DNA from: a virus
Virus record (IMG/VR): IMGVR_UViG_3300045955_000402
Span: 1-34,954 of that record
Length of the DNA: 34,954 nt
Strand: one strand, 5' to 3'
The position numbers and the translations under genes are program-made. Positions 5,435 to 32,150 of this stretch are shown here, piece after piece (positions within the stretch are counted from its first letter, which is position 1; each line of letters begins with the position of its first letter). The notes under the pieces are model-generated. The model saw nothing but the letters and a program-made list of their open reading frames with translations. It did no database searches and was not told the origin of the DNA.

Positions 5435-5663
5435 GCTTGTCCTCCTCTCTGGGGTGCATCCGTGTCCATTCCCAGGCGAGATCATTGAGATTCAAATCGA
5501 GTTCTGAGGCGAGACGCGCAATCGTGGGCCACTTCGGCAACATCTGATCACATTCGAGGGCACTGAGATGTTTCTGGGCAATGCCTGTCCTGGCCGAGAG
5601 TTCTTGCTGGCTTAACGCCTTGTCAATGCGGGCTTTGCGGAGTTCTTTCCCAAGGCTGACCAT
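5427..5663 (-). CDS. XRE-family helix-turn-helix regulator
   Basis: A 78-residue protein that is almost entirely one Cro/CI-type HTH domain: LGKELRKARIDKALSQQELS, then ARTGIAQKHLSALE as the recognition region, and TIARLASELDLNLNDLAWEW. No protease or oligomerisation domain follows, so it is Cro-sized. I chose the ATG at 5663 because AGGAGG lies seven bases upstream. It is transcribed away from the early operon, and its promoter region contains a perfect 10-bp inverted repeat (5667-5707), which suggests autoregulation. It probably controls the switch between leftward and rightward transcription; the target is inferred. Confidence 0.85.
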   Translation of the reverse strand: MVSLGKELRKARIDKALSQQELSARTGIAQKHLSALECDQMLPKWPTIARLASELDLNLNDLAWEWTRMHPREEDKHA

Positions 5664-5666
5664 CGT

Positions 5667-5707
5667 ATATCCTCCTATTTCCATAAAATATACAGTAAGG
5701 AGGATAT
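5667..5707. promoter_or_regulatory. Candidate operator of the XRE regulator
   Basis: ATATCCTCCT at 5667-5676 and AGGAGGATAT at 5698-5707 form a perfect 10-bp inverted repeat, 31 bases centre to centre. One half covers the regulator's own Shine-Dalgarno. The other lies in the spacer of its promoter, so a bound regulator would block its own expression. The second half is upstream of the expected transcript start, so an RNA hairpin is unlikely. One half has to contain AGGAGG for translation, which slightly raises the odds of coincidence. Confidence 0.5.
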
Positions 5708-5716
5708 TTTTGTCAA
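5687..5716 (-). promoter_or_regulatory. Leftward promoter for the XRE regulator
   Basis: On the minus strand a consensus -35 TTGACA (5716-5711) is followed after 18 bases by TATATT (5692-5687). Transcription would start some 15-20 bases before the AGGAGG of the regulator. The spacing and hexamers are good for a housekeeping sigma factor. Confidence 0.65.
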
Positions 5717-5734
5717 ATTTTTACTAAAATACCC

Positions 5735-5763
5735 TTTACTTTATAACTTGTAGAGGATAAGAT
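5735..5763 (+). promoter_or_regulatory. Rightward early promoter
   Basis: TTTACT (5735-5740), a 17-base spacer and TAAGAT (5758-5763) would start a transcript near 5770, just before the long hairpin at 5777. TATAAC at 5742-5747 with TTTACT 16 bases upstream is an alternative. The area is strongly AT-rich compared with the flanking genes and lies between divergent genes. Confidence 0.5.
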
Positions 5764-23473: not shown

Positions 23474-24160
23474 CTATGGCACGTCGGCGGGGAGGGCGGA
23501 GAAGTACGCCGTGACGTGCAGGCCACCAACGGCGTCATAGTTCCCGCCCAGGGCTGACGCGAGAATCACGTATGGGATCGGCTCCACCGGCGTGGTATCC
23601 GAGCGAAACGACACCTGTCCACCGCTTTGCCCGGCGCTCAGATCCGTAATGTGCGCCCAGCGGTCATTGGCAATGGCATCGCCCAGAAGGATGCCTGTCA
23701 GACCGCCAGACGTGCCAAAGGCTGTGGTGATCGTCCAGGTCAGGCCTTCACAGCGAAAACCTGCTGGGACGAGGGAGGGAATACTGATCACGCCCGTCCC
23801 GGGGCTGGGGGTGACGTCGATATCTGCAGAGCCCACGATTTTCTCTCCCGGATCTGGGGGTGGGGCACTACTCACAAATGAGTACGCATCGACACTCCAG
23901 AGCAGGACATCCTCGGCATCGTAGAGGCGCAGGTCGTACAGCCCGCGCAGATATACGGTCGCGGACCCCTGGTCATCCATGACCACGGGCTGCGCATTGG
24001 GCACCGTGAGCCAGGGGTCCGCATACGTCACCTTCGGAGTGCTCGTGGAAGGCACATAGCCATACAGCTTCCCGCCGATATTGGGCAGGCCATCCACGAA
24101 GCTCTGGAACAGCGGCCAGGGGATGATCGTCACCACGGTGATGTCGGTACTGGGCGCCAC
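23474..24160 (-). CDS. Tail fibre/spike N-terminal-type protein
   Basis: A 228-residue protein starting at GTG 24160 with AAAGGG upstream. The N-terminus WPLFQSFVDGLPNIGGKLYG followed by YADPWLTVPNAQPVVMDDQG, ATVYLRGLYDLRLYD and DVLLWSVDAYSF matches head-binding or anchor domains of podovirus tailspikes and fibres. The C-terminal third (LTWTITTAFGTSGGLTGILL, GDAIANDRW) is a domain that also occurs at the end of the collagen-like fibre at 32784. It is probably the adaptor that attaches the S74 fibre to the tail. Confidence 0.75.
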   Translation of the reverse strand: MAPSTDITVVTIIPWPLFQSFVDGLPNIGGKLYGYVPSTSTPKVTYADPWLTVPNAQPVVMDDQGSATVYLRGLYDLRLYDAEDVLLWSVDAYSFVSSAPPPDPGEKIVGSADIDVTPSPGTGVISIPSLVPAGFRCEGLTWTITTAFGTSGGLTGILLGDAIANDRWAHITDLSAGQSGGQVSFRSDTTPVEPIPYVILASALGGNYDAVGGLHVTAYFSALPADVP

Positions 24161-24183
24161 ACTGGACCCTTTGCGCTAAAGTT

Positions 24184-24212
24184 TTGCCTTGTCTCGGTCG
24201 ATACGATAGACT
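24184..24212 (+). promoter_or_regulatory. Promoter of the first plus-strand island
   Basis: TTGCCT (24184-24189), a 17-base spacer and TAGACT (24207-24212) would start transcription near 24219, four bases before the first stem of the leader RNA. It faces away from the tail-fibre gene at 24160. Confidence 0.55.
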
Positions 24213-24222
24213 AAGAGTATGT

Positions 24223-24301
24223 TGTTTGGGGCGCGGGTTCGCTACCCGCACGGTGCTCCATTCAGCATCAAGCCCCAAACACTCAACCTGAATGGAGGTT
24301 G
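24223..24301 (+). ncRNA. Three-way-junction leader RNA with kissing SD hairpin
   Basis: P1 is TGTTTGGGGC (24223-24232) with GCCCCAAACA (24272-24281). P2 is GCGGGT-TCGCT-ACCCGC (24233-24249). P3 is GGTGCT-CCATTC-AGCATC (24252-24269, one G-T pair). Together they close a compact three-way junction with linkers of 0-2 bases. Two bases later CAACC and GGTTG (24284-24288, 24297-24301) form a hairpin whose 8-base loop TGAATGGA contains the Shine-Dalgarno. The loop is exactly complementary to TCCATTCA at 24257-24264 (loop of P3 and its closing pair); the complementarity extends to ten bases. A loop-loop contact would hide the ribosome site of the gene at 24304. No known riboswitch class is recognised. 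Confidence 0.65.
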
Positions 24302-24303
24302 TG

Positions 24304-24540
24304 ATGCGACTGTCTCCACTCGATCTTGCCCAACTCATTGTCTACATTCTGCTTGGCCTGGCGATTATCCTGGTCACGGCGCATGCCCTGGTCGTCCTCG
24401 ACGGCATCGAAAAACGCCAGCAGCAGAGCGAGCGCCATCACGAAAAACTGATCATCATGGCCGACACGGCCTTAGCGGACCACACGCGCTTCCTCCAGGA
24501 ACACGATGCCATGCCGGGCCGCCTGCCCAGCGGGCGCTAG
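24304..24540 (+). CDS. Membrane-anchored coiled-coil protein
   Basis: A 78-residue protein starting MRLSPLDLAQLIVYILLGLA; one transmembrane helix (around residues 9-32, LIVYILLGLAIILVTAHALV), then a charged coiled coil (EKRQQQSERHHEKLI). N-terminal anchor plus periplasmic coiled coil is the layout of Rz-like inner-membrane spanins, though the periplasmic part is short. I chose the ATG at 24304 because GGAGG lies five bases before; its translation is probably controlled by the structured leader. Confidence 0.65.
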   Translation: MRLSPLDLAQLIVYILLGLAIILVTAHALVVLDGIEKRQQQSERHHEKLIIMADTALADHTRFLQEHDAMPGRLPSGR

Positions 24541-24551
24541 GAGGACGCGCC

Positions 24552-24806
24552 ATGGACACCACACCGACCCCCCTGGAACTCCTCCAGCGTGCCATGCAGC
24601 TCCACGCCGATACGCTGATTGACCACAAGGAACGCCTCGGCGTGCACCAGCACTGGCTCACCGCCTATGCCGAGATGCTCGAGCGGCATCACCTGCGGAT
24701 GGATGCGCACCAGCAGCGCATGGACGCACTCCAGCGCACCATCGAACATATTGATCTCACGCTCACGGCCATCAAGGACCTGCTCGGCCGCGATAACGGG
24801 CGCTAG
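24552..24806 (+). CDS. Coiled-coil protein
   Basis: An 84-residue protein starting MDTTPTPLELLQRAMQLHAD. It is an almost continuous His-rich helix with heptads (LEMLERHHLRM-like region, then ALQRTIEHIDLTLTAIKDLL). No membrane segment. AGGAGG precedes the ATG. A broken copy of its 3' end lies at 11440-11496. It likely partners the membrane proteins on either side. Confidence 0.65.
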   Translation: MDTTPTPLELLQRAMQLHADTLIDHKERLGVHQHWLTAYAEMLERHHLRMDAHQQRMDALQRTIEHIDLTLTAIKDLLGRDNGR

Positions 24807-24817
24807 GAGGACGGACG

Positions 24818-25066
24818 ATGTCCCTCATGCAAATCGAATTGTACGATGCCCTCAAAGCTGGGGGCACTCCTGAAGCCGAAGCCCGACACGCGGCGATTGA
24901 AGCTGCCGGCTCGACCTCCTTACTCGGCACCCTTGCGGAACGCATCAATGGCTTAGAGCGTCTCGTCCTCTGGATGGGAGGCGTCATGCTGACGCTCCAT
25001 GTCCTGACGCTGGGCTCCGTCCTCGCGCTGGCCTGGCAGGTCCTGCAACGCCTGCCGGTACGCTAG
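24818..25066 (+). CDS. Small tail-anchored membrane protein, holin-like candidate
   Basis: An 82-residue protein starting MSLMQIELYDALKAGGTPEA. The N-terminal half is a soluble helix (EARHAAIEAAGS). The C-terminal half is one transmembrane helix (WMGGVMLTLHVLTLGSVLAL). AGGAGG lies upstream. One membrane span near the C-terminus fits small accessory holins or DUF1640-like coiled-coil proteins. The lysis role is inferred from the neighbouring genes. Confidence 0.6.
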   Translation: MSLMQIELYDALKAGGTPEAEARHAAIEAAGSTSLLGTLAERINGLERLVLWMGGVMLTLHVLTLGSVLALAWQVLQRLPVR

Positions 25067-25075
25067 GAGGGGCGT

Positions 25076-25324
25076 ATGCTGCCCACACTCGAGACTCTGC
25101 TCTATTGGACGCTCCTGACCTTCTGGGGCGTCGTCGGGTTCTGGCTCCTGCTCCTTGCTGGCGGTGCGGTCTTCCTCGCCGCCGTCCTAGGCCTGGATGC
25201 CCTGAGCCGCGCGCTGCACTGCTGTGCCGACTGGTGTGCGCGCTGGCTCTATCCTGAATACACCATCCCCCTGGGGCTGGCCCTGAGCCCGGTCGTGTGC
25301 GTGGCCTGGGCACTGCTGCGCTAA
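25076..25324 (+). CDS. Two-span membrane protein, holin candidate
   Basis: An 82-residue protein starting MLPTLETLLYWTLLTFWGVV. The first hydrophobic span is around residues 8-40 (long enough for two turns through the membrane or one long helix, FWLLLLAGGAVFLAAVLGLD), and a second is at the C-terminus (IPLGLALSPVVCVAWALL). A Cys/Trp-rich connector with charges lies between. AGGAGG upstream. Holin-like by size and topology. Its stop overlaps the stop of the opposing virion gene by 4 bases. Confidence 0.6.
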   Translation: MLPTLETLLYWTLLTFWGVVGFWLLLLAGGAVFLAAVLGLDALSRALHCCADWCARWLYPEYTIPLGLALSPVVCVAWALLR

Positions 25325-31313: not shown

Positions 31314-31393
31314 GGCACGGCTAGGGCGACGGCCCGAATCCCAGCACCTCACTGGCTGCCGTGCTACATCTGAGGACCAACAAGAGGAGTTGG
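31314..31393 (+). ncRNA. Second three-way-junction leader RNA with SD hairpin
   Basis: P1 is GCACGGC (31315-31321) with GCCGTGC (31358-31364), extended by a G-T pair. P2 is GGGC-GACG-GCCC (31324-31335). P3 is CCAG-CACCTCA-CTGG (31341-31355). A hairpin CCAAC-AAGAGGA-GTTGG (31377-31393) then presents the Shine-Dalgarno in its loop, and ATG follows four bases later. The order P1-P2-P3-P1', followed by a CAAC/GTTG hairpin with the SD in its loop, is the same as in the leader at 24223. The CCTC of the P3 loop can pair with GAGG of the SD loop (4 bases). Confidence 0.55.
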
Positions 31394-31397
31394 AGCC

Positions 31398-32150
31398 ATG
31401 CCGCAATCTTTGCAAGAAAAGCGCGAGAAGAAACGAGCCTATGATAAAATCTACAACCAACGCCATGCAGCCAAGAAACGAGCCGCAGCGCGGGCCTGGA
31501 AGATCGCTCATCCTGCACGAAAAAAAGCATTGGACAAAGCTGCTGGTCAGCGCTCGTGGGCGGCAAGAGTGGCCTATGAAGCTGACTACCCTGAAGCACG
31601 CGAGGAGCGTCGAGCAAAAGCCAGGGCGAAACAGAATGCACGTAATGCGTTGCATCGCGCTGAAGAAGCTACCAGAGTAAAAGCCTATCGACTTGCCCAC
31701 CCTGAAGAAGAACGTGCAAGAGGAAAAGCCTATAAAGCTGCACATCCTGAAAAAGCACGTGCCTCGAATCAACGTTATGCTGCGAAACATCCTGAGCGTA
31801 TTCGCCAAAGACAACTGGCGTATCGCCAAGCACGTCCTGAATTCGTCGCGATGCATAACGCCAGACGTCGCGCGCGAAAGGCTAATGCCCCAAGCAATAA
31901 CTTGACCTCTGCCGAATGGGTTGGCATTCAGGAAGCGCAAAACCACCGTTGTTACTACTGTAAAAAACGTTGCAAAGGCCATTTGACCCAGGATCACCTG
32001 ACACCTCTGTCACAGGGTGGTTCCCATACAGTGCACAATGTCATAGGAGCATGTGGCTCCTGCAATTCTCGCAAAGGCACGAAACTACCGCCTATTCCTG
32101 TACAACCGTTCTTACTCGTGCTCGCAGCAACCAAGAAAAAAACTGCCTAA
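31398..32150 (+). CDS. HNH endonuclease with HPE-repeat N-terminus
   Basis: A 250-residue protein on the opposite strand to the virion genes. Residues 20-165 are very basic helical repeats built on xAHPExxRxRxxAY (AHPARKKALDKA, AHPEEERARGKAYK, AHPEKARASNQRYA, KHPERIRQRQLAYR), a DNA-binding arrangement seen in phage HNH homing nucleases. The catalytic domain at about 180-235 has CYYCKKRCKGHLTQDHLTPL, SQGGSHTVHNVIGACGSCNS and RKGTKLP (the H-N-H with two CxxC). It has its own promoter and leader. It looks like a recently inserted selfish gene. It overlaps the opposing gene by 4 bases. Confidence 0.85.
   Translation: MPQSLQEKREKKRAYDKIYNQRHAAKKRAAARAWKIAHPARKKALDKAAGQRSWAARVAYEADYPEAREERRAKARAKQNARNALHRAEEATRVKAYRLAHPEEERARGKAYKAAHPEKARASNQRYAAKHPERIRQRQLAYRQARPEFVAMHNARRRARKANAPSNNLTSAEWVGIQEAQNHRCYYCKKRCKGHLTQDHLTPLSQGGSHTVHNVIGACGSCNSRKGTKLPPIPVQPFLLVLAATKKKTA

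Follow-up and report, generated by a model that had tools for sequence, protein, structure and literature searches.

The locus and the fold of its leader

The window (the whole stretch of DNA analyzed here) is a virus record of 34,954 bases. Its large terminase shares about 43% identity with the large terminases of small Pelagibacter phages. BLASTN with the leader region described below gave zero matches against cultured phages, among which the window has no close relative at the DNA level. In the right part of the window, the structural genes lie mostly on the minus strand, and four small plus-strand genes form a cassette inserted at 24219-25324. The first of them follows a structured leader, and the locus has the following features.

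24184-24189 and 24207-24212, plus strand: promoter-like pair TTGCCT-N17-TAGACT, from the sequence, 10 bases before P1
24223-24232 and 24272-24281, plus strand: stem P1, 10 bp, from the fold
24233-24238 and 24244-24249, plus strand: P2 hairpin GCGGGU-UCGCU-ACCCGC, 6 bp, from the fold
24252-24257 and 24264-24269, plus strand: P3 hairpin, 6 bp, from the fold
24258-24263, plus strand: P3 loop CCATTC, full complement of the SD loop
24284-24289 and 24296-24301, plus strand: Shine-Dalgarno (SD) hairpin CAACCT-GAATGG-AGGTTG, 6 bp with a 6-nt loop at 24290-24295, from the fold
24294-24299, plus strand: Shine-Dalgarno sequence GGAGGT, -10.0 kcal/mol with the canonical 16S tail, 5' of the ATG at 24304
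24304-24540, plus strand: first gene, putatively controlled by the leader, 78 aa with an N-terminal membrane segment
24552-24806, 24818-25066 and 25076-25324, plus strand: three more small cassette genes, on the same strand as the first

The product of the first gene (24304-24540) matched no family in Pfam or PHROG. A relative of this gene is present without a leader at another location in L003, and relatives of the 24818 gene lie immediately behind leaders in three other contigs (L265, L382 and L389). Within the cassette, CGCTAGGAGG is repeated at the intercistronic junctions (24540-25080), where the stop codon overlaps the SD. From these repeated junctions, the small genes look as if they had been duplicated or shuffled as units.

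The 84 bases 5' of the ATG at 24304 fold into a three-way junction followed by the SD hairpin. The minimum free energy of 24219-24306 is -42.4 kcal/mol, compared to -26.0 ± 3.3 kcal/mol in shuffled sequences (z = -5.01, 0/200), and the junction is the one that a preliminary description of this DNA had placed here. Its linkers measure 0, 2 and 2 nt, and only about 2 nt separate P1 from the SD hairpin. The preliminary description had drawn this hairpin with 5 bp and an 8-nt loop; the hairpin is the same, but it folds with 6 bp and a 6-nt loop, the closing U-A pair having been opened in the earlier version. The complementarity proposed between the P3 loop and the SD loop is present as well, and with flanks it spans ten bases, CTCCATTCAG at 24256-24265 facing CTGAATGGAG at 24288-24297. 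Much of the SD is already hidden by the SD hairpin on its own, and this loop-loop pairing (the kiss) could therefore serve instead as a stabilizer, as the target of an activator or as a site for action in trans. An Rfam search of the leader (24150-24360) returned no family matches. A tRNA-like 3' end (T-arm plus CCA, seen by eye) was discarded, as ARAGORN gives no tRNA.

The promoter-like pair at 24184-24212, from which the preliminary description had derived the transcript, is present, although it is weak by consensus and is not listed by a strict promoter scan of the window. In most homologs, a TATACT/TATAAT-like hexamer ends 2-16 nt 5' of P1. Given these promoter-like hexamers upstream of P1, the mRNA can tentatively be assumed to begin with the junction.

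Homologous leaders and their covariation

The preliminary description had tied its proposal to the conservation of the stems and of the loop complementarity in related phages. We found that 13 elements in all, i.e., the window and 12 leaders of other virus contigs, keep P1, P2 and P3. In 13/13, the P3 loop and the SD loop are perfect complements over 6-7 nt while their letters differ between elements, the changes in the loop pair being compensatory. The ATG lies 1-6 nt 3' of the SD hairpin in all of them, and the spacing between P1 and the SD hairpin is 0-9 nt. The elements lie at the SD of the genes that open plus-strand cassettes. The small membrane protein described earlier fits the gene in the window and those of several relatives, but HNH endonucleases are encoded behind other members, and the genes behind the leaders share no single function. 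Both kinds of product are typical cargo or selfish genes.

The homologs were recovered along several routes. The neighboring minus-strand protein (53% identity) led to L005, whose leader carries the loop pair CCAATC/GATTGG and which harbors a second leader copy elsewhere, with CCATAC/GTATGG. Beside leader copy A of L005, the region 5560-5760 (minus strand) ends in GGGAATCTCCGCCGTTTACGGCGGGGAGCATGTCAA, by eye like the right end of IS200/IS605-type elements, and gives a weak HgcC match. L253, L265 and L273 were recovered by SD-hairpin patterns, L376, L379 and L382 by a protein search with the third cassette gene, and L384 and L389 by the P2 pattern. Additionally, a covariance model restricted to the junction, built from other phages without the window (R1), recovered L376:284-345 and L377:3530-3591. 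All eight elements found independently of the complement (by neighbor proteins, the P2 pattern or R1) carry it. With filters off, the best R1 match in the whole window is 24222-24282 (16.1 bits, E 0.0095); L005B scores 35.5 bits. The R1-type sequences all come from uncultured virus contigs, and R1 gave zero matches in eight genomes of other phyla. A scan of genome contigs with CAACCTN6AGGTTG yielded chance matches only, without a loop complement before a start codon.

The covariation of the kiss was scored on an alignment (A6) of ten elements trimmed to P3 and the SD hairpin as gapless segments, and P1-P3 were counted on hand-made blocks. In A6, 98% of the cells pair and 10/15 pairs show two-sided changes; the covariation score reaches 0.745 versus 0.208 in shuffles (0/500). 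Pairing falls to about 42% on a one-column slide and is lost for slides of 1-3 nt. The kissing helix is paired in 60/60 cells (ten elements), and five of its six positions change on both sides. Similarly, P1 is paired in 60/60 cells with compensatory changes at 7/7 positions (nine elements), P2 in 44/44 cells, and P3 in 42/44 cells with covariation at all positions. The kissing hexamer duplexes themselves are modest (-5.6 to -7.9 kcal/mol). That the leader might be a chance fold, a terminator or the product of a coding constraint, without RNA function, has nothing in its favor except the high GC content, and we give this reading practically no weight: the covariation over 13 elements already refutes it, no terminator-like site was found, and the lengths of the indels between elements are not divisible by three.

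The P2 core (UAGCGGGUCGCUCCCGC) is identical in three relatives (L005B, L265 and L382). The core letters of the relatives are UA and UCGYAAG; the window has no J12, and its J23 is AC. The SD stem is not fixed, since CACCT/AGGTG, AACCT/AGGTT, GCGCT/AGTGC and GACATC/GATGTC also occur, with matching loops. In L376:284 and L377, the SD loop changes along with P3 despite an unrelated SD stem.

Several further leaders resemble these elements in part. L252:4450-4535 and, on the minus strand, L258 and L260 have a single hairpin with a loop exactly complementary to that of the SD hairpin CAACCT-N6-AGGTTG. They were excluded from the statistics because they have no three-way junction, and they are possibly a simpler version of the switch. 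L007 and L084 have the SD hairpin without the full complement. Finally, L380:3184-3233 (17.9 bits) is a junction remnant without P3 or gene, that is, a decayed copy, and the element can therefore be lost after its gene.

A candidate translational switch

Probably, the 24219 leader is a cis-acting translational control leader of a new RNA family, repressed by the kiss and equipped with a sensing junction. In this scheme, of which we infer the transcription start, the repression, the action in cis and the existence and nature of the trigger, transcription would begin at P1 and the three-way junction would fold first. The SD hairpin would then emerge beside P1, and its 6-nt loop would be captured by the P3 loop. 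The kissing helix would extend the SD hairpin and block 30S binding, which would turn the small-protein or HNH gene off. A change in the junction would make or break the kiss and so set expression, most plausibly when a ligand or protein binds to the P2/J12/J23 face, whose sequence is conserved; the conservation of this core suggests that something is sensed. Action in cis is favored because the SD hairpin is close to P1, a promoter-like hexamer lies directly upstream and the distinct loops of L005 mispair. Indeed, cross pairs between the loops of the two L005 leaders mismatch at two central positions, as would be expected for cis specificity.

The trans-acting C4 antisense RNA offers a different model. 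C4 of P1/P7 likewise has three stems, lies upstream of its target and occludes the ribosome site with a loop (PMC5320573; PMC12197685), and, once cleaved by RNase P, it works in trans through two loops, a' and b' (PMC5320573). By analogy, the junction would be processed off the leader, and its P3 loop would block the downstream gene's SD on other mRNAs, providing superinfection immunity or copy control. The loop letters differ from phage to phage, a diversification expected of immunity specificities. However, the P1-SD hairpin spacing of 0-9 nt is a closeness needless for trans action, the promoter-like -10 directly before P1 leaves no room for a precursor, and the C4 covariance model (RF01695) had no match in the window; we regard the trans reading as unlikely. 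C4 and the 24219 leader have in common the three stems and a loop pairing over the ribosome site of a gene further down the same transcript, but C4 is trans-acting, is processed by RNase P to an RNA of about 77 nt and uses the two loops a' and b'.

We also attach little probability to a plain RNA thermometer or ligand-free static brake, where the kiss would merely lower the translation of a selfish gene. Such a brake has precedents in the T4 I-TevI and Aeh1 mobE homing endonuclease genes, whose ribosome binding sites are sequestered (PMC3014915), and HNH genes lie behind several members of the present family. The T4 I-TevI/Aeh1 mobE hairpins share with the kissing leaders a hidden ribosome site, often before endonuclease genes, but they are simple local helices without a junction or kissing loop. 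For a static brake, a conserved three-way junction whose P2/J12/J23 core is near-invariant would be superfluous.

Loop-loop pseudoknots activate in some plasmid rep leaders, and the kissing helix might likewise activate, e.g., by keeping the SD hairpin in a conformation ribosomes can open. The sign of the effect is not readable from the sequence, which leaves room for this reading. We nevertheless consider it quite improbable: the last bases of the kissed loop are the GG of the SD in most members, so that ribosome binding competes with the kiss.

The repressing kiss that we favor has a counterpart in the cobalamin riboswitch, in which the L5-L13 loop kiss stabilizes the state that hides the ribosome binding site (PMC10653944). 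There, too, a loop of the junction kisses a loop of the expression platform. However, the cobalamin riboswitch (RF00174) has a far larger aptamer and a known ligand, and its L13 is apart from the hairpin with the ribosome binding site. Rfam found no match to RF00174 or to a cobalamin core in the leader. The leader family most likely controls mobile or cargo genes in the manner of the cobalamin kissing loop or C4, being a member of neither. It represents a well-covarying regulatory RNA family from phages that is absent from Rfam 15. Its loop-SD code is swappable between elements and could give orthogonal translational parts.

The int-alpA RNA as a second leader kind

The window carries a second leader of similar layout.

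31314-31376, plus strand: int-alpA RNA (RF02996), laid out like the 24219 leader, Rfam match with 41.2 bits
31378-31394, plus strand: SD hairpin CCAAC-AAGAGGA-GTTGG of the HNH gene, with GAGG pairing with the int-alpA P3 loop CACCTCA
31398-32150, plus strand: HNH endonuclease gene behind int-alpA, on a separate plus-strand island

The linker TGAGG (31371-31375) likewise pairs with the P3 loop CACCTCA. In layout, int-alpA is the nearest relative of the 24219 leader: both have a three-way junction with short linkers and a P3 loop complementary to a site 3' of P1, both precede the SD of a mobile-DNA gene, and both are present in the phage of the window. The phage behind L253 also carries both leader kinds. 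The earlier statement that no riboswitch or thermometer class with such a layout is known therefore needs a qualifier, since int-alpA shares it as far as the P3 loop and the 3' complement of that loop. The two differ in core and linker. The int-alpA core carries CUAG ahead of P2 and GAAAA in the stretch joining P2 to P3, and a linker that follows P1 and precedes the SD repeats the loop complement; the 24219 leader has none of these. The RF02996 covariance model gave no match at 24150-24360 up to E 10, nor in the relatives L382 and L376:1010-1170, and R1 gave none on int-alpA loci. By covariance model, int-alpA and the family of the 24219 leader are not one family.

RF02996 scores above cut-off in 50 of 399 sampled Pseudomonadota genomes and in 34 of 274 genomes sampled from a single class. 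In 60 distinct int-alpA loci, the P3 arm forms on average 5.2 contiguous pairs with its own linker versus 4.1 after permutation (z 10.6) and 5.5 versus 4.5 with its own SD region (z 7.9), these z values being upper bounds because the permutations ignore relatedness. Both matches reach at least five pairs in 37/60 loci, and SD hairpins with stems of at least five are found in 29/50, where 7.5 are expected. One genome (G108) carries several int-alpA copies with differing loops, many of which match their own SD. The genes downstream of int-alpA in Pseudomonadota (L312-L374, L406-L425) are diverse; among those tested, two have Trans_reg_dom or weak HTH-like matches. The Rfam entry lists int-alpA as an sRNA gene only. 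Since its P3 arm covaries with linker and SD, int-alpA looks like an SD-pairing switch with these two as competing partners, and this orphan RNA thereby becomes testable as such.

More tentatively, the kissing leaders and int-alpA may form the two branches of a single large class, so far undescribed, of translational switches in phages and integrative elements. In this class, the three-way junction would be the sensor, and its P3 loop would choose a partner (linker or SD) and gate cargo genes, with P2/J12/J23 as the ligand or protein site. Some int-alpA P2 arms (GGGUCGCUCCCG in L365) resemble the P2 of the kissing leaders (GCGGGUCGCUCCCGC), a likeness that hints at common descent. Additionally, L264:138-236, which scores 29.2 bits for int-alpA, below the cut-off, and an int-alpA-like leader in L275 (minus strand) both have a CAACCT/AGGTTG SD hairpin, and these two leaders are possible intermediates bridging int-alpA and the kissing-SD leaders.
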